NCBI GenBank assembly: GCA_003577305.1
Contig: QEVL01000015.1
Span: 1-64,000 of the forward strand
DNA from: Burkholderiales bacterium
GTDB taxonomy: Bacteria; Pseudomonadota; Gammaproteobacteria; Burkholderiales; Burkholderiaceae_E
Reading direction: 5' to 3'
Length of the DNA: 64,000 bases
Shown here in pieces: positions 2,944-14,221 of the stretch (position 1 is its first letter; each line of letters begins with the position of its first letter). The notes below the pieces were generated by a model that was not told the origin of the DNA, searched no databases, and was given only the letters and a program-made list of their open reading frames with translations. The translations under genes were made by a program, and so were the position numbers.

Positions 2944-3600
2944 TCAGGCCTTCCTGAACGTGTCCAGCCTGATGCCCTCGCGCGCCACCACGGCAGCCAC
3001 CGCCGGGTGCGCGGCAACGCGATCGACGTAGGCCTTGTACACGGGAAGCGAATCGGGGTCGATCCCCGCGAAACCGCCCCAGCGCAGCAGCGTGAGCGCA
3101 TACGCATCGTGGAACGACAGGCGCCCTCCGAACCAGTACGGGCTGGCTGACGAGATCCAGCCCTGGATGCGCTCGAGCTGCGTGCGATACAGCGCCGCGT
3201 TGAAGCGCTTGAGCTCGGCCTGCGTGGCCTCGCCGTCGCAGAATCGATCGGGCATGAACACGTGCGTGAAGGTCGGGTGCACGGTGTTGTTCATCCACAG
3301 GAACTGCGACATCGCCTGCGCCCGCGCCCAGGGCTCGGTCGGCAGCAGCCCCGCCTGCGGATAGCGCCGGTCGAGGTAGTCGCAGATCGCCACGATCTGC
3401 GACAGCGGCTTGCCGTCGACCACCAGCGTGGGCACCTGCGCATTCGGGTTGATCGCCAGGTACTCGGGCGTGCGCTGCTCGCCCTTGTGAAGCCTGACCA
3501 TGCGCGCAGCGAAGTCTTCGCCCGTGGCCGCCTTGATCGCCTCGAGCGCGACGTGCGGCACGAACGAGCAGGCCCCCGGACCGTAGTGCAGTTCGAGCAT
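2944..3600 (-). CDS. Glutathione S-transferase family protein
   Basis: Cytosolic GST of 218 residues, the usual family size. The N-terminal thioredoxin-like fold starts LELHYGPGACSFVPH, with the Cys typical of bacterial beta-class GSTs. A glutathione-site segment (NAQVPTLVVDGKPLSQI) and a helical C-terminal domain follow. A longer reading starts with TTG at 3609, but GGGGAG lies about 9 nt before the ATG at 3600, so that ATG is preferred. The gene is divergent from hcrCAB and convergent with uvrA. Substrate unknown; a role beside aromatic degradation genes is possible but not shown. Confidence 0.88.
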   Translation of the reverse strand: MLELHYGPGACSFVPHVALEAIKAATGEDFAARMVRLHKGEQRTPEYLAINPNAQVPTLVVDGKPLSQIVAICDYLDRRYPQAGLLPTEPWARAQAMSQFLWMNNTVHPTFTHVFMPDRFCDGEATQAELKRFNAALYRTQLERIQGWISSASPYWFGGRLSFHDAYALTLLRWGGFAGIDPDSLPVYKAYVDRVAAHPAVAAVVAREGIRLDTFRKA

Positions 3601-3680: not shown

Positions 3681-3694
3681 TTGATTCAGGTCAA
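3681..3694 (+). promoter_or_regulatory. FNR/ANR-type box upstream of hcrC
   Basis: TTGATTCAGGTCAA matches the FNR consensus TTGAT-N4-ATCAA at 9 of 10 defined bases. Its centre (3687.5) is about 41.5 bp before the start of transcription predicted from a weak -10 (GAGAAT, 3718-3723). That is the class II activator position. It implies activation of hcrCAB at low oxygen. Confidence 0.6.
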
Positions 3695-3722
3695 GGGCGG
3701 GGACGGTCGCTCGGGGCGAGAA

Positions 3723-3739
3723 TGTTGACCAGGTCAACA
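3723..3739. promoter_or_regulatory. Perfect 17-bp palindrome, candidate MarR operator of hcrCAB
   Basis: TGTTGACC-A-GGTCAACA is a perfect dyad around one central base. It covers the predicted hcrC transcription start, a usual place for a repressor. The MarR gene at the end of the same operon is the obvious candidate to bind it (inference). Confidence 0.5.
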
Positions 3740-3804
3740 ATTATCACGGCGACCCGCCCAGCGTGGCTGTCTCGCCACGGCGACAGATCAGCAGGAGGCA
3801 GTCA

Positions 3805-4356
3805 ATGACACCGATCGTTGCGGAACAGGGTCCGGCAGCCGACCCGCAACCGGCGGCCGCATCGGGCGTGAAGCGGCGCGCGCGATCGATCCTCGCCCTG
3901 ATCGTGAACGGCCGCGAACGCGAAGACGTGGTGCCCGACGGCATGTTGCTGCTCGACTACCTGCGCGAGGTGGTCGGCCTGACCGGCACCAAGCAGGGTT
4001 GCGACGGCGGCGAATGCGGCGCCTGCACCGTGCTGGTCGACGACCAGCCGCGGCTCTCCTGCTCGACGCTGGCGGTGCAGATGCAGGGCCGGCGGGTCGA
4101 GACGGTGGAAGGCCTGACCCAGGGCGGACGAATGAGCCCCCTGCAACAGGCGTTTCACGAATCGCTCGGCGCGCAGTGCGGCTTCTGCACACCCGGCATG
4201 ATCACCGCGGCCGAGGCGCTGCTGCGGCGCAACCCGGATCCGAGCCGCGAGGAGATCAAGGAAGCCATGGGCGGTAACCTGTGCCGCTGCACCGGCTACG
4301 TGAAGATCATCGAATCGGTCCGCAACGCCGCTGCGGCGCGCAAGGTGAGGTCATGA
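3805..4356 (+). CDS. hcrC: 4-hydroxybenzoyl-CoA reductase gamma subunit ([2Fe-2S] protein)
   Basis: Small electron-transfer subunit of a xanthine-oxidase-family hydroxylase/reductase, 183 residues. Plant-type [2Fe-2S] cysteines are at 66, 71, 74 and 86 ([10 protein letters not shown]...C). The second cluster uses cysteines 125, 128, 160 and 162 (CGFC...CRC). AGGAGG at 3793-3798 lies 6 nt before the ATG at 3805, which rules out the upstream in-frame GTG at 3763. The N-terminus carries about 28 extra residues before the ferredoxin fold. Its stop overlaps the hcrA start (ATGA). The assignment as HcrC rests mainly on the partner HcrB. Confidence 0.92.
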
Positions 4357-6671
4357 GCATCGCGCAACTGGAGAAGGCCCGCGTGGGCCCGGTGGGCGTG
4401 CGCACGCCGCTGATCGACGGCGTCGACAAGGTCACCGGCAAGGCGAAGTACACCGCCGACCTGGCCGCCGCCGGCGCGCTGTGCGGCCGCATCCTGCGCT
4501 CGACCGTGCCGCACGCACGCATCGTCTCGATCGACACCTCCGCGGCCGAGGCGCTGCCGGGCGTGGTCGCGGTGTGCACCGGCGACGATTGCAGGGTGCC
4601 GTTCGGCGTGCTGCCGATCGCCGAGAACGAGTATCCGCTGGCGCGCGAGAAAGTGCGCTATCGCGGCGACCCGGTCGCCGCGGTGGCCGCGGTCGACGAA
4701 GCCACTGCGGCGCGCGCGCTGAAGCTGATCCGCGTGCACTACGAGAAGCTGCCGGCCTATTTCAGCGCACGCAAGGCGATGAAGCCGGGCGCCGAGCCGA
4801 TCCACGCCGAGAAGCCCAACAACGTGCTGCGCGAAGTGCACGCCGAGTTCGGCGACACCGAAGCCGGTTTCGCAGCGGCCGACCTGGTGCGCGAGAAGAG
4901 CTACCGCTTCGCCGAGGTCTGCCACGCGCAGATGGAGCCGAACGCGACGCTGGCCGAATACGACCCCGAGCGCGGCCACCTCACGCTGCACACCACTACC
5001 CAGGTGCCTTACTACGTGCTGCTGAAAGTGGCGCAGTGCCTGGAGATGGAGCAGGCGCACATCCGCGTGGTCAAGCCGTTCCTGGGCGGCGGCTTCGGGC
5101 AGCGCACCGAGGCGCTGCACTTCGAGATCATCGCCGCGCTGCTCGCGCGCAAGGCCGGCGGCACGGTGCGCCTGCTGCAGACCCGCGAAGAGACCTTCAT
5201 CGCGCACCGCGGACGACCCGACACGCAGATCACGATCAAGCTGGGCATGACCCGCGAGGGCAAGCTCACCGCCTGCCACCTGCAGGCGACGCAGGAAGGC
5301 GGCGCGTACGCCGGCTACGGCATCATCACGATCCTCTACACCGGAGCGCTGCTGCACGGCATCTACGAGATTCCGGCGATCAAGCACGACGCCTGGCGTG
5401 TCTACACCAACAACCCGCCGTGCGGCGCGCAGCGCGGACACGGCACGGTGGATGCGCGTGCCGCCTTCGAGGCGCTGATGAACGAGATGGCCGACGAACT
5501 CGGGCTCGATCACTTCGCGGTGCGCCGCATCAACCTGCTGCCCGGCGTGCCCTACGTCACGGCCTACGCGCAGCGCGTGTTGAGCTACGGCCTGCCCGAA
5601 TGCCTGGACAAGGTCATGAAGGCTTCGGGCTGGGCCGAGCGGCGCGGCAGGATGCCCAGGGGGCGCGGGCTCGGCCTCGCCTGCTCGCACTTCGTTTCCG
5701 GCACCAGCACGCCCAAGCACTGGACCGGCGAGCCTCACGCGGTGGTCAATCTCCGACTCGACTTCGACGGCGGCATCACGGTGCTGACCGGCGCGGCCGA
5801 CATCGGCCAGGGCTCGAACACGATGGCCGCGCAGATGGTGGCCGAGGTCATGGGCGTCGACTGGTCGCGGCTGCGCGTGGTGTCGGCCGACAGCGCGCTC
5901 ACCCCCAAGGACAACGGCAGCTATTCGTCGCGGGTCACCTTCATGGTCGGCAACGCCGCGATCGATGCAGCCAGGCAACTCAGGCGCATTCTCGTCGAAG
6001 CGGCGGCGCGCAAGCTCGAGGCGAGCGCCGCCGACGTGGAGTGCGAAGGCGAGGCCTTCCGCATCGCCGGAACCGATCGCGCGATTCCGTTTCGCGAAGC
6101 CGTGCGGGCGGCATTGGTCGACACCGGGCCGATCACGGTCAAGGGCACTTTCACCTGCCCTCCCGAGTTCATGGGCAGCAAGCAGATCCGCGCGAGCGCG
6201 ATCGGCGCCACCATGGGCTTTTGCTACGCCGCACAGGTGGTCGAATGCTCGGTCGACGAAGTCACCGGCAAGGTGACCGCCGAGAAAGTCTGGGTGGCGG
6301 TCGACGTCGGGCGTGCGCTCAATCCGCTGGCGGTCGAGGGGCAGGTCCAGGGCGGGGTGTGGATGGGCATGGGCCAGGCACTCTCGGAGCAGACCCGCTT
6401 CGACGAGGGCCGCATGATGCACGGCAACCTGCTCGATTACCGCGTGCCGACGATGGTCGAGAGCCCCGACATCGAGGTGTTCATCGTCGAGAGCATCGAT
6501 CCCAACGGGCCGTTCGGCGCCAAGGAGGCGAGCGAAGGCATGCTGGCCGGTTTCCTGCCGGCGCTGATGGACGCGGTGCACGAAGCCACCGGGGTGCGTG
6601 CCTACAGCCTGCCGCTCAGCCCGGAGTGCATGGGCGAACTGCTCGACGCGCGCGACGGAGTGCAGTCATGA
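4353..6671 (+). CDS. hcrA: 4-hydroxybenzoyl-CoA reductase alpha subunit (molybdopterin)
   Basis: Catalytic molybdenum subunit of 772 residues, close to the remembered size of Thauera HcrA. It removes the para-hydroxyl of 4-hydroxybenzoyl-CoA, giving benzoyl-CoA. The N-terminal a/b hammerhead domain ([15 protein letters not shown]) is followed by molybdopterin-contact segments [32 protein letters not shown] and [16 protein letters not shown], and by GAKEASEG near the C-terminus with the expected active-site Glu. The start overlaps the hcrC stop and the stop overlaps the hcrB start, giving strict translational coupling. Confidence 0.93.
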
Positions 6672-7651
6672 ACCTGATGCCGGCATTCCGCCTGCACCGC
6701 CCGCAGACGCTCGAAGAGGCGGTGCGGCTCAAGACCGGGCTGCCCGGGGCGCGCTTCGTGGGAGGCGGCACCGATCTCCTGGTCAACCTGCGCCGCGGCC
6801 TGGGCGAGCCGAGCGACCTGATCGACCTGGGCGCGGTGACCGAACTCGGCGCAGTGCGCCACGTCGAAGGCGCGCTGTGGCTGGGCGCCGGCGTGACGCT
6901 GGCCAACCTGGCGCAGCACCCCGAGATCGTCGACGCCTATCCGGCCGTGGCGCAGGCCGCCCGGGCCGTGGCAGGTCCCACCCATCGTGCCGCGGCGACG
7001 CTGGGCGGCAACCTGTGCCAGGACACCCGCTGCATCTTCTACAACCAGAGCGACTGGTGGCGCGAGGGCAACGGCTTCTGCCTCAAGTACAAGGGCGACA
7101 AGTGCCACGTGGTGGTCAAGAGCGATCGCTGCTACGCCACTTACCACGGCGACCTCGCCCCGGCGCTGATGGTGCTCGATGCCGAGGCGGTGATCGCCGG
7201 CACGCAGAGCGCGCGGCGCATCGCGCTGTCGGAGCTGTACCGTGAAGACGGTGCCGCATACCTGACGCTGGGCGCCGGCGAAGCGCTGGCCGCGGTGGTG
7301 CTGCCGCCCCCGGGCGGGCGCCGTGCGGCCTACGCCAAGGCGCGCGTGCGCGATGCGGTCGACTTCCCGCTGGCCGGCGTGGCGGCGGCACTCAGGCGCG
7401 AGGGCGACGTCATCGGCGAGCTCAGGGTGGCGATCAGCGGCACGAATTCGGCGCCGCTGATGGTTCCCACCGCGGAGCTTGCAGGCCGTCCATGGAACGA
7501 CGAAGCCGCCGCGGCCCTTGCACTCGCCCTGCGCAAGACAGCCAACCCTCTGCGCACCACGGTCACCGCGCCGAAGTACCGCCGGCGGGCGATCCAGGGC
7601 ATGACGCGCAGGCTGGTCGACGGCCTGTGGAACGACGCGAGGGGCGGATGA
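6668..7651 (+). CDS. hcrB: 4-hydroxybenzoyl-CoA reductase beta subunit (FAD, extra [4Fe-4S])
   Basis: FAD-binding subunit of 327 residues. FAD motifs are [13 protein letters not shown] (30-42) and the [12 protein letters not shown] region. The diagnostic feature is an insertion with cysteines at 122, 138, 146 and 155. From memory these are the same positions as the [4Fe-4S] ligands of Thauera aromatica HcrB, and they are absent from ordinary xanthine dehydrogenase FAD subunits. This loop is what identifies the whole operon as 4-hydroxybenzoyl-CoA reductase rather than CO or xanthine dehydrogenase. The stop overlaps the start of the MarR gene. Confidence 0.95.
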
Positions 7652-8187
7652 AGACGGCGGCCGACACGGCCGACGCACCGGCCGCGGCAACGCCGAGAGA
7701 CCGCCAGGAACCGGGGGATCGCAACGAACTCTCCTACGGCCTGCTGCCGCAGGTGCTCGGCTATCACCTGCGGCGCACCCAGGTGGCGATCTTCCGGCAC
7801 TTCTCGCGAACCGTGGCGGCCGAGGAGAACATCACCCCCGGCCTGCTGGGCATGCTGCAGGTCATCGCCGCCAATCCGGGGCTCGCGCAGAGCCGGCTCG
7901 CCGAAGCGATGGAGGTCGATCGCTCGACGATCGTCAAGGTCGTCGACCAGCTCGAGGGACGCGGACTGATCGTGCGCGAGCCCTCGCCTCACGACAAGCG
8001 CAGCTACTGCCTGCGGCTCACCGGCGAGGGCACCGCGGCGCTGCGGCGTATGCTGGCGCTGATGCGCAGGCACGAAGACGAGTTCACGCAGGCCCTGTCG
8101 GCCGAGGAGCGGCAGTTGCTGATCCGCCTGCTCGAACGGCTGCACAGCCCGGCCGCGCCGTCACCGGATCGGCAAGCGCCGCGTTGA
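7648..8187 (+). CDS. MarR family transcriptional regulator of the hcr operon
   Basis: 179-residue winged-helix regulator. The HTH runs through LAQSRLAEAMEVDRSTIVKV and the wing through REPSPHDKRSYCLRLT. MarR proteins commonly sense aromatic ligands. Translation is coupled to hcrB by ATGA, so it is made together with the enzyme, which suits autoregulation from the palindrome at 3723-3739. It could act like BadR of Rhodopseudomonas, which senses benzoyl-CoA-type ligands, but the ligand here is unknown. The first ~28 residues are Ala/Asp/Pro-rich and probably disordered. Confidence 0.88.
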   Translation: MKTAADTADAPAAATPRDRQEPGDRNELSYGLLPQVLGYHLRRTQVAIFRHFSRTVAAEENITPGLLGMLQVIAANPGLAQSRLAEAMEVDRSTIVKVVDQLEGRGLIVREPSPHDKRSYCLRLTGEGTAALRRMLALMRRHEDEFTQALSAEERQLLIRLLERLHSPAAPSPDRQAPR

Positions 8188-8197
8188 CCTGCATCAA
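8184..8197 (+). promoter_or_regulatory. FNR/ANR-type box upstream of the ferritin-like gene
   Basis: TTGACCTGCATCAA matches TTGAT-N4-ATCAA at 9 of 10 defined bases. It overlaps the MarR stop codon and lies 74 nt before the ferritin-like start codon. No clear -10 is visible downstream, so the promoter itself is unplaced. Confidence 0.6.
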
Positions 8198-8271: not shown

Positions 8272-8781
8272 ATGAGCTACACGCTGCCGGAATTCCTCGC
8301 TCACGCGGTGGCGCTCGAAACCGAGGCGGCCGAGCGCTATCTCGAGCTCGCCGACATGATGGAAGCGCACCGCAACGACGAAGTCGCCGCGCTGTTCCGC
8401 GACATGGTGCGTTTCTCGCAAATGCACCGCGACGACATCAGGGCCAGGGTCGGCGACATCGTGCTGCCGAAGCTGAAGTCCTGGGAATACCGCTGGTCCA
8501 GTCCACCCGAGGTCGGCGGCGAGGAGGCCTTCGACTACCTGCTCGACCCGTGGCATGCACTGCGCTATGCACGCGAGAACGAAGTGCGCGCGATGGAGTA
8601 CTACAGTTCGGTGGGCATGCAGTCCAGCGACCCGGAAGTCAGGCGGCTGGCCGCCGAATTCGCCAGCGAGGAAGCCGAGCACGTCGATGCGCTCGACAAA
8701 TGGCTCGCGCGCACGCAGCGTCCCTCCACCACCTGGGACGCCGACCCCGAGATCGAGCCGGTGCGCCAGCACCGGAGTTGA
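8272..8781 (+). CDS. Ferritin-like/rubrerythrin-type diiron protein
   Basis: 169-residue protein predicted as a four-helix ferritin-like bundle. Likely metal-site residues include Glu in ALETEAAERY, Glu in NEVRAMEYY and a full ExxH in FASEEAEHVDAL. The first ExxH position reads SQMH, so one expected Glu ligand is Ser. AAGGAGA lies 5 nt before the ATG. The likely role is oxygen or peroxide protection or iron handling for the oxygen-sensitive Fe-S/Mo enzyme made by the operon upstream, and the FNR-like box fits that (inference). The substrate is not known. Confidence 0.82.
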   Translation: MSYTLPEFLAHAVALETEAAERYLELADMMEAHRNDEVAALFRDMVRFSQMHRDDIRARVGDIVLPKLKSWEYRWSSPPEVGGEEAFDYLLDPWHALRYARENEVRAMEYYSSVGMQSSDPEVRRLAAEFASEEAEHVDALDKWLARTQRPSTTWDADPEIEPVRQHRS

Positions 8782-12460: not shown

Positions 12461-12474
12461 TTGATCTGGATTAA
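12461..12474 (+). promoter_or_regulatory. FNR-like box upstream of the aryl-CoA ligase
   Basis: TTGATCTGGATTAA differs from TTGAT-N4-ATCAA at one base. Its centre is about 41 bp before the start expected from a weak -10 (TCAAAT, 12497-12502), the same geometry as at hcrC. Confidence 0.5.
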
Positions 12475-12577
12475 ACCGGATCCGCATCCCCGGCGATCAA
12501 ATCACCCTGACGCGGTCCTTCGCGGATCGACCGCGATTCGCCAGCGTCCGACGTCCACGCGAGGAACCTGGAGCACC

Positions 12578-14221
12578 ATGCACCTGCCCGGCGGCGTCCC
12601 TTCGGCTCACGTCGATCCGTTCATCGGTTCGCAGCTTCCGCCGCGAGATCTGTGGCCGCGATTCGATTATTCGGCGGCGCACCTGAACCACTACCCGGAT
12701 CGGCTGAACGCCAGCGTGGCGCTGCTCGATGCGGCGGTCGAGGGCGGCGCCGGCGACAGGCCGGCATTGCACTACGAGGCGACCACCTGGACGTATCGAC
12801 ACCTCCTCGATCGCGTGCAGCGCATCGCGCGGGTGCTCGTCGAGGATTTCCGCCTCGTTCCGGGCGAGCGCGTGCTGCTGCGATCGGCCAACACGCCGAT
12901 GGTCGCCGCCTGCTGGCTCGCGGTGCTGCGCGCGGGCGGCGTCGTCGTCAACACGATGGCGATGCTGCGCGCGCGCGAACTCGCCTACATCCTCGACAAG
13001 GCGCAGGCGCGAATCGCGCTCTGCGAGGTCTCGCTTGCCGAAGAACTCGGGCTCGCCGCCGCGCGTGCGTCGCTGCCCGAGCGCATCGCGTGTTTCACGC
13101 CCTGCTGCGATGCGAGCCATCCCGATGCCGACCTCGACCGGCGGGTCGCGGCGAAACCCGCTGGCGGGTCCGCGGTGGCGACCGCGGCCGACGACGTGGC
13201 ACTGGTCAGCTTCACTTCGGGAACCACCGGCAACCCGAAAGGCGCGGCCGTCTTTCACCGCGACCTCGTCGCGGTGACCGATTGCTGGCCGCAGGTCTAC
13301 ACGGTCGAGCCCGACGAAGTCGTCGTCGGCTCGTCCACGCTGGCGTTCACCTACGGGCTGTCCACTTCGCTTCTCTTTCCGCTGCGCCATCGCGCCACTA
13401 CGGTACTGATCCCGCGCCCGACACCCGAGGCGCTGCTCGAAGCGATCCAGCGCTACCGTGCCACGAGCCTGTATTCGGTGCCGACGCTCTATCAGAACAT
13501 GTTGCCGCTCGCCGGCGCCTACGACCTCTCGAGCCTGCGCAAGTGCGCATCGGCGGGCGAGAACCTGCGCACCGACCTGTGGGAGCAATGGCGTGCGGCC
13601 ACCGGAACGCGCGCCGTGAACGGGCTCGGCACCACCGAGATGCTCTCGCACTTCGTCTCCGAATCGATGCAGGTGGCATGCGTGGGTTCGATGGGACGCC
13701 CGGTGCCCGGCTACACCGTGGAGATCCTCGACGACGAAGGCCGGTCGCTGCCGCCCGGCGAGCGCGGCCGTCTCGCCGTGATCGGCCCGACCGGCTGCCG
13801 CTACATCGGCGACCCGGCGCGCCAGGCGATTGCCGTGCAGCACGGCTGGAACCTCACCGGTGACATCTGCGAGCGCGACACCGAGGGCTGCTTCTGGTAC
13901 ATCGATCGCGCCGACGACATGATCGTCTCCGCCGGCTACAACATCTCGCCGCAGGAAGTCGAGCGCGCGGTGCTCGAGCATCCGAAGGTCTACACCTGCG
14001 CGGTGATCGGCGTGCCGAGCGAAACCCGCGGCAACATCGTGCGCGCCTGCGTGGTGCTGCACGATCCGCGCGACGCGGGCGAGGCGATGGCGGCCGAGAT
14101 CCAGAACCACGTCAAATCGATGCTCGCGCCGTACAAGTACCCGCGCGAAGTCAAGTTCGTCGACGAACTGCCGCGCACCGCGACGGGCAAGATCCAGCGC
14201 TACCGCCTGCGCGAACTGTAG
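12578..14221 (+). CDS. Benzoate/2-aminobenzoate-type aryl-CoA ligase
   Basis: 547-residue ANL-superfamily acyl-CoA synthetase. It activates a carboxylic acid with ATP and CoA. Motifs: P-loop FTSGTTGNPKGAA, GLGTTEMLSHF, LTGDICERD and the C-terminal catalytic-Lys region PRTATGKIQRYR. The N-terminus (AHVDPFIGSQLPPRDLWP) resembles 2-aminobenzoate-CoA ligases more than classic benzoate-CoA ligases. Given hcrCAB upstream, the physiological substrate may be 4-hydroxybenzoate, 2-aminobenzoate or benzoate; sequence alone does not decide. Two short purine-rich stretches precede ATG-12578. The FNR-like box suggests low-oxygen expression. Confidence 0.85.
   Translation: MHLPGGVPSAHVDPFIGSQLPPRDLWPRFDYSAAHLNHYPDRLNASVALLDAAVEGGAGDRPALHYEATTWTYRHLLDRVQRIARVLVEDFRLVPGERVLLRSANTPMVAACWLAVLRAGGVVVNTMAMLRARELAYILDKAQARIALCEVSLAEELGLAAARASLPERIACFTPCCDASHPDADLDRRVAAKPAGGSAVATAADDVALVSFTSGTTGNPKGAAVFHRDLVAVTDCWPQVYTVEPDEVVVGSSTLAFTYGLSTSLLFPLRHRATTVLIPRPTPEALLEAIQRYRATSLYSVPTLYQNMLPLAGAYDLSSLRKCASAGENLRTDLWEQWRAATGTRAVNGLGTTEMLSHFVSESMQVACVGSMGRPVPGYTVEILDDEGRSLPPGERGRLAVIGPTGCRYIGDPARQAIAVQHGWNLTGDICERDTEGCFWYIDRADDMIVSAGYNISPQEVERAVLEHPKVYTCAVIGVPSETRGNIVRACVVLHDPRDAGEAMAAEIQNHVKSMLAPYKYPREVKFVDELPRTATGKIQRYRLREL

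Follow-up and report, generated by a model that had tools for sequence, protein, structure and literature searches.

The stretch analysed here (the window: 64,000 nucleotides of a Burkholderiales bacterium, contig QEVL01000015.1, positions 1 to 64,000 of the forward strand) carries on its plus strand the genes of 4-hydroxybenzoyl-CoA reductase, followed by a gene for a MarR-family regulator. More specifically, hcrC (3805 to 4356) encodes the gamma subunit, hcrA (4353 to 6671) the alpha subunit and hcrB (6668 to 7651) the beta subunit, and all three products score above their NCBIfam equivalog cut-offs (TIGR03193, 268.5 bits for a cut-off of 257.8; TIGR03194, 1264.8 bits for 994.55; TIGR03195, 467 bits for 404.55). 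The beta subunit of this enzyme is distinguished by a cysteine-bearing insertion for an extra Fe-S cluster; in the HcrB of the window, a cysteine-rich stretch that includes the letters DRC was seen by eye. The last gene, marR (7648 to 8187), overlaps the end of hcrB by 4 bases, and its product, the proposed hcr repressor, passes the cut-offs of PF01047 and PF12802. The original prediction of a complete 4-hydroxybenzoyl-CoA reductase operon with a terminal MarR gene is thus borne out. Two further elements that this prediction had placed in front of the operon were likewise found where it put them, in the intergenic gap between a minus-strand glutathione-transferase-like gene (about 2944 to 3600) and the ATG of hcrC at 3805. 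One is an FNR-type box, TTGATTCAGGTCAA, at 3681 to 3694, with one mismatch to TTGATN4ATCAA, which we propose as an activator site; the other is a perfect 17-bp palindrome (8+1+8), TGTTGACCAGGTCAACA, at 3723 to 3739, the proposed MarR operator. Both are read on the plus strand, as are two candidate -10 hexamers, GAGAAT at 3718 to 3723 (the one chosen by the original prediction) and AACAAT at 3736 to 3741, each matching at four of six positions.

Taken singly, each element is weak evidence. Matches to the FNR-like pattern with up to two mismatches number 17 in the window for 4.7 expected, and perfect 8+1+8 palindromes number nine, where 20 Markov resamples gave 4.2 on average. This exact palindrome has no second place in the genome within two mismatches, the next best places having three. 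Because neither element is rare by itself, the case rests on conservation and co-occurrence.

Conservation was assessed in a family sample of 74 genomes, of which 18 belong to the genus of the window, including the window's own genome (G000). HcrC above the family cut-off was found in 14 of the 74 genomes, all within the genus, and these fall into two operon types: type 1, with HcrC at least 80% identical to that of the window, in six genomes (G000, G061, G062, G066, G068 and G069), and type 2, with HcrA about 60–62% identical, in eight. The search of related genomes for both sites upstream of hcrC that the original prediction had suggested found them in all six type 1 genomes, the FNR-type box with zero or one mismatch to TTGATN4ATCAA. 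In the 350 bp scanned in each of the eight type 2 genomes there was no FNR-like site with up to two mismatches and no palindrome with up to four. Across these six sequences, the FNR site is invariant in 10 of its 14 columns and the palindrome in 12 of its 17, compared with 20 of the 244 other upstream columns, and pairwise identity of the flanks is 39–60%, with the exception of G062 and G069 (85%).

In all, the scan covered the 350 bp before hcrC at 39 loci with HcrC at least 60% identical, loci of lower identity being excluded. A palindrome with up to four mismatches was obtained in nine rows representing eight distinct sequences, L015 and L038 apparently being the same contig; one of the rows (L020) is the window itself. 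BroJett031 (L037) has both sites and adds little independent weight because its DNA is 98.5% identical over 11.6 kb. In L042 (Rubrivivax sp. SCN 71-131) the palindrome carries a single mismatch, and the FNR site is degraded to TTGATCCATCGCAA, with two. At L040, hcrC follows hcrB, so that the 350-bp scan missed the start of the operon; across the whole L040 stretch there is no palindrome, and FNR-like boxes occur only kilobases away from the operon start. The sole palindrome-like stretch at L039 has four mismatches and is found some 500 bp upstream of the HcrC match, and a marR match is absent at both L039 and L040. At L043, L046 and L054 a different MarR (40–45% identity) precedes hcrC, and no such palindrome is present there. 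BroJett031 also has a second hcr cluster (L061, HcrA 64% identical) besides the one it has in common with the window.

The palindrome, in turn, goes together with marR. Orthologs of marR (at least 71% identity) are present in exactly six of the 18 genus genomes, the same six that carry the type 1 operon, and in each of them the gene is located after hcrB; in G069 the match extends beyond the gene's end stop, with no internal stop. The pattern TGTTKACCN4MAACA occurs at a single place in each of these six genomes and at none in the other 12; since this pattern (TGTTKACCNNNNMAACA) was derived from sites already seen, the absence from the other 12 is the informative part. Outside the genus, the palindrome pattern has a match in 7 of the 56 family genomes, and the reversed control pattern is found once in all 74 genomes. 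A MEVDRS region at the recognition helix is common to the nine MarR orthologs compared. Eleven weaker relatives (35–50% identity) differ at this region and have no full palindrome in the approximately 200 bp upstream, one of them having a half-site and one masked upstream bases. Wider searches returned few relatives of the protein: MarR matches were found in 4 of the 398 genomes of a phylum-wide sample, one being the window's own and the other three at 36–44% identity, and a search for plasmid-borne relatives gave no match to MarR (E limit 1e-20) or HcrB (1e-40) among 72,556 plasmid records. Hcr genes are not adjacent to the weak MarR relative at L199.

A second group of operons provides evidence from outside the family of the window. 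At L048, a locus of a Rhodospirillaceae metagenome-assembled genome, a marR 68.5% identical to that of the window is the first gene of a marR-hcrCAB operon, and two palindromes stand before it. As far as sequence comparison goes, we regard this arrangement as a stronger test than the pattern scan within the genus. Among 55 genomes of the family of L048, 22 contain relatives of MarR (25 matches), and hcrC is directly downstream at 21 of the 25 loci. A palindrome with up to two mismatches lies within 220 bp upstream of marR at 18 of the 25, for 0.025 expected from shuffles, a count of interrelated loci rather than of independent events, and all 18 belong to the 21 with hcrC downstream. Two palindromes are found at 16 loci, spaced by 33 bp at 14 of them, by 35 bp at one and by 23 bp at one. 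Within those 220 bp, an FNR box with up to one mismatch is absent from all 25 loci. The joint presence of palindrome and marR in precisely six of the 18 genomes of the genus and the position of the site before marR in the second group speak for the MarR at the end of the operon as the palindrome's partner, as originally proposed, and the palindrome is very probably its operator.

The FNR-type box has counterparts elsewhere in G000, which contains 52 sites with up to one mismatch to TTGATN4ATCAA compared with 4 for the reversed control pattern. Four of these sites are free of mismatches. The first lies between had, encoding 6-hydroxycyclohex-1-ene-1-carbonyl-CoA dehydrogenase, and korA, a gene for a 2-oxoacid oxidoreductase, and the second stands in front of two genes whose products resemble subunits C and B of benzoyl-CoA reductase but score below the family cut-offs. 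The third separates boxC from the gene for a 3,4-dehydroadipyl-CoA semialdehyde dehydrogenase, and the fourth is upstream of an electron-transfer-flavoprotein-beta-like gene (below cut-off), with a gene for EttA close by. Benzoyl-CoA reductase subunit C and boxB are present in the genome above cut-offs. In a hand-chosen subset of the 18 genus genomes, the had-korA box is mismatch-free in all four genomes compared (G000, G061, G069 and G072), and a box precedes boxC, at about 33–300 bp, in all six (perfect in G000 and G061, one mismatch in G062, G066, G069 and G072). These observations support the hcr box as a member of a set of such boxes found in front of benzoyl-CoA-pathway genes and box genes as well.

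Several other sites of this kind were noted. The perfect box that separates boxC from the divergently oriented semialdehyde dehydrogenase gene (L126:5143-5156; G000:C42:41142) has TATAAT 8 bp downstream, and therefore this box might repress, not activate, the box genes. A second benzoyl-CoA reductase C/B-like pair (L125:4633-7114; G000:C33; below cut-offs) immediately follows a perfect FNR box and adjoins a formate/nitrite transporter-like gene. Within the window, an FNR-like site, TTGACCTGCATCAA, at 8184 to 8197 overlaps the marR stop upstream of a ferritin/rubrerythrin-like gene (8272 to 8781); it is also present in BroJett031 (L037:11517), a relative too close to serve as a test. Another, TTGATCTGGATTAA, at 12461 to 12474, is about 85 bp upstream of a benzoate-CoA-ligase-like gene (12560 to 14221; TIGR02262, 347.2 bits, below the cut-off of 375.25), a candidate 4-hydroxybenzoate-CoA ligase. 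At L198, the genes for a second-group MarR relative and for a ligase are convergent, this ligase sharing 62% identity with that of the window.

The best solved match of the window's MarR is CouR (PDB 6c28, E 7e-26), which we take to be the R. palustris protein. The MarR passes no NCBIfam equivalog cut-off (e.g., Saro_0803, HpaR or SlyA), the best being NF053777 with 103.6 bits for a cut-off of 200. CouR repressors are described as released by p-coumaroyl-CoA (PMC9594313, PMC4737184). Because the nearest solved relative is CouR, we propose, with moderate confidence, that the ligand would be an aryl-CoA, with 4-hydroxybenzoyl-CoA or benzoyl-CoA as the likeliest candidates.

As a whole, the locus is best explained, and we consider it likely, by a double switch in which an FNR-type activator and a MarR repressor act together on hcrCAB-marR. 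The four genes would be transcribed from a single promoter in the region 3681 to 3750, and an FNR-family activator at 3681 to 3694 would turn the operon on. MarR made from the last gene would, very likely in view of the comparisons above, bind the palindrome at 3723 to 3739 and block RNA polymerase, and aryl-CoA would, with moderate confidence given the relation to CouR, free it from the DNA. The outcome would be an AND gate, in which the activator condition and aryl-CoA are both needed. Because marR is within the operon, MarR would also limit its own synthesis.

Several observations weigh against such a switch or parts of it. A promoter and terminator scan came back empty, with no sigma-70 promoter passing, and two -10 candidates, GAGAAT and AACAAT, compete. 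The distance from the FNR box to the palindrome is not constant (26–28 bp), and G061 and G068 have a palindrome with a degenerate right half (TGTTTACCTACGCAACA, 4 mismatches). The second group is not free of exceptions either: apart from the relatedness of its loci, 3 of the 21 with hcrC downstream have only sites with three or four mismatches, and L199 (G512, 38% identity) has a perfect operator match, TGTTTACCTGGTCAACT, 539 bp after the start of its MarR relative and none before it. As for the box set, the box is about 250–300 bp from boxC in three of the six genomes, and five further one-mismatch FNR matches are scattered elsewhere in the had-korA and boxC stretches. Lastly, no cysteine-bearing FNR was found in G000 (the assembly being 90.7% complete), and the six FNR homologs inspected among 16 in the genus, including those of all five other type 1 genomes, are all without the Fe-S cysteines.

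Other explanations differ in what they make of these points. That both elements are chance near-matches in a GC-rich intergenic region, with no regulatory meaning, draws on the fact that neither is rare alone, but it does not account for their conservation within diverged flanks or for their co-occurrence with marR; we rejected it after the conservation and co-occurrence tests as extremely improbable. Another dimeric regulator might instead bind the palindrome, with the operon's MarR acting elsewhere. The evidence for MarR is indeed linkage, but a pattern found once per genome in just the six of 18 genomes that have this marR, and again before marR in the second group, makes a different partner quite improbable. 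The geometry of the promoter is more evenly contested, although the operator overlaps the core promoter with either -10 candidate. The original prediction derived the start from GAGAAT, which would put the start at about 3729 and the FNR box at about -41.5, as in an FNR-dependent class II promoter. This hexamer is present and fits that distance, but it matches at four of six positions, lacks a -35 partner and has a rival in AACAAT, which would place the box near -60.5. If AACAAT were the -10, the start would lie near 3748, the FNR box would be in a class I position and the palindrome would sit between the -35 and -10 positions, the -35 having been lost and the FNR site having taken its role. 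AACAAT is invariant in the seven-sequence alignment; of the 18 second-group proximal operators, 16 have it as their last six letters and 14 have a TTGACA-like hexamer (four or five of six positions) exactly 17 bp before it, at a position where the window has GGGGCG. Against this, in many second-group loci the distal operators are also followed by AACAAT, inside a longer palindrome, so that its conservation may instead reflect an outer part of the operator. The position of GAGAAT reads [CG]AGAAT or CAAAAT in the genus and AAGACT in L042, and [CG]AGAAT is kept in five of six genus sequences despite breaking the longer symmetry. We give the class I arrangement a little less than an even chance.

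The identity of the activator bears on the other half of the switch. The palindrome could be the MarR operator while the box is bound by an FNR-family protein that has no cysteines and does not itself sense oxygen, the signal being a kinase cascade, nitrogen oxides or the aromatic substrate; FixK-, DNR- and HbaR-like are candidate labels for such a protein. In G000, only two CRP/FNR-family proteins pass the Pfam cut-off, C15 (labelled DNR-like here), which is without the FNR cysteines, and C23, which is CRP-like. FNR homologs with E 2e-58 or better are present in 16 of the 18 genus genomes, none of them above the Fnr cut-off. By eye, the six inspected (L130, L131, L133, L135, L140 and L143) keep the FNR-type helix ETVSR and are without both the N-terminal C-x2-C-x5-C and the central cysteine, and the homologs of G061 and G069 have a PAS-histidine kinase gene as their neighbour. 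However, BroJett031, with the same promoter, has a cysteine-bearing FNR (CSNCQLREAC, ADVCAIPY), and the genomes of L041 and L042 have FNRs above the family cut-off with the cysteine motif. We hold the cysteine-less activator to be a tentative alternative, more doubtful than probable. For the anaerobic activation that was originally predicted, oxygen is a possible direct signal and no more, because G000 yielded no cysteine-bearing FNR and the genus homologs inspected are without cysteines, although BroJett031 has a cysteine-bearing one.

Returning to the double switch, the comparison of the two groups suggests, with a probability we put slightly above even, that a dedicated hcr repressor module (MarR and its operator tGTTKACC-N-GGTMAACa) accompanies hcr genes in two or more groups of bacteria. 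The second group would use it in a marR-hcrCAB operon that regulates itself, has a pair of operators spaced by about 33 bp and a -35-like hexamer, and is without an FNR box; in the genus of the window, marR is last, there is one operator, and an FNR-type site would replace the -35. A substrate switch would thereby have been rewired into a substrate-AND-FNR switch within the wider FNR-type set of benzoyl-CoA and box genes. The locus offers a specific, testable repressor and operator for the genes of 4-hydroxybenzoyl-CoA reductase, an entry step in the anaerobic degradation of phenol and 4-hydroxybenzoate, together with a natural comparison of the same repressor module wired with and without FNR-type input, and possibly a CoA-ester-responsive promoter.

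The original prediction also presented control of hcr genes by MarR and FNR as new. Searches of the open-licence PMC literature turned up no account of hcr genes under MarR control, but the arrangement is less new than was stated: for neighbouring pathways FNR-plus-repressor control, including a MarR/Fnr pair, is known. The title of a paper on BadR and AadR of R. palustris reportedly names MarR-family and Fnr-family regulators on anaerobic benzoate genes, and that of a paper on HbaR is said to describe a 4-hydroxybenzoate sensor. BadR and AadR resemble the pair proposed here in being a MarR/Fnr pair on anaerobic aromatic genes, and differ in their target genes. The BadR operator is given as CAAN4TTG (PMC9795900), which differs from the operator of the window; a BadR-type operator was looked for in 3700 to 3760 and rejected, CAAN4TTG having no match there. 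Thauera aromatica and R. palustris, too, have a marR gene next to their genes for anaerobic benzoate metabolism, where it has been proposed as the regulator (PMC5852087, in whose passages on it no operator is named); co-localization with anaerobic aromatic genes is thus common to both settings, the genes being those for benzoate there and hcr in the window. HbaR of R. palustris exemplifies FNR/CRP-family control of anaerobic 4-hydroxybenzoate degradation (PMC4424350), an input of the same kind on 4-hydroxybenzoate genes, for which the passages of that source dealing with HbaR mention no MarR partner. CouR, the nearest solved relative of the window's MarR, has p-coumarate genes as targets, and the CouR box of R. 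jostii is ATTGA-N5-TCAAT (PMC4737184). Finally, at the bzd PN promoter of Azoarcus sp. CIB, AcpR is described at -41.5 and BzdR over the -10 and +1 positions, with repression relieved by benzoyl-CoA (PMC6678401). As described there, that promoter, like the one proposed here, combines a site for an FNR-family activator with a repressor operator at the core promoter, whereas its repressor is BzdR, its operators are of the TGCA type in three regions and its target is a benzoate operon.

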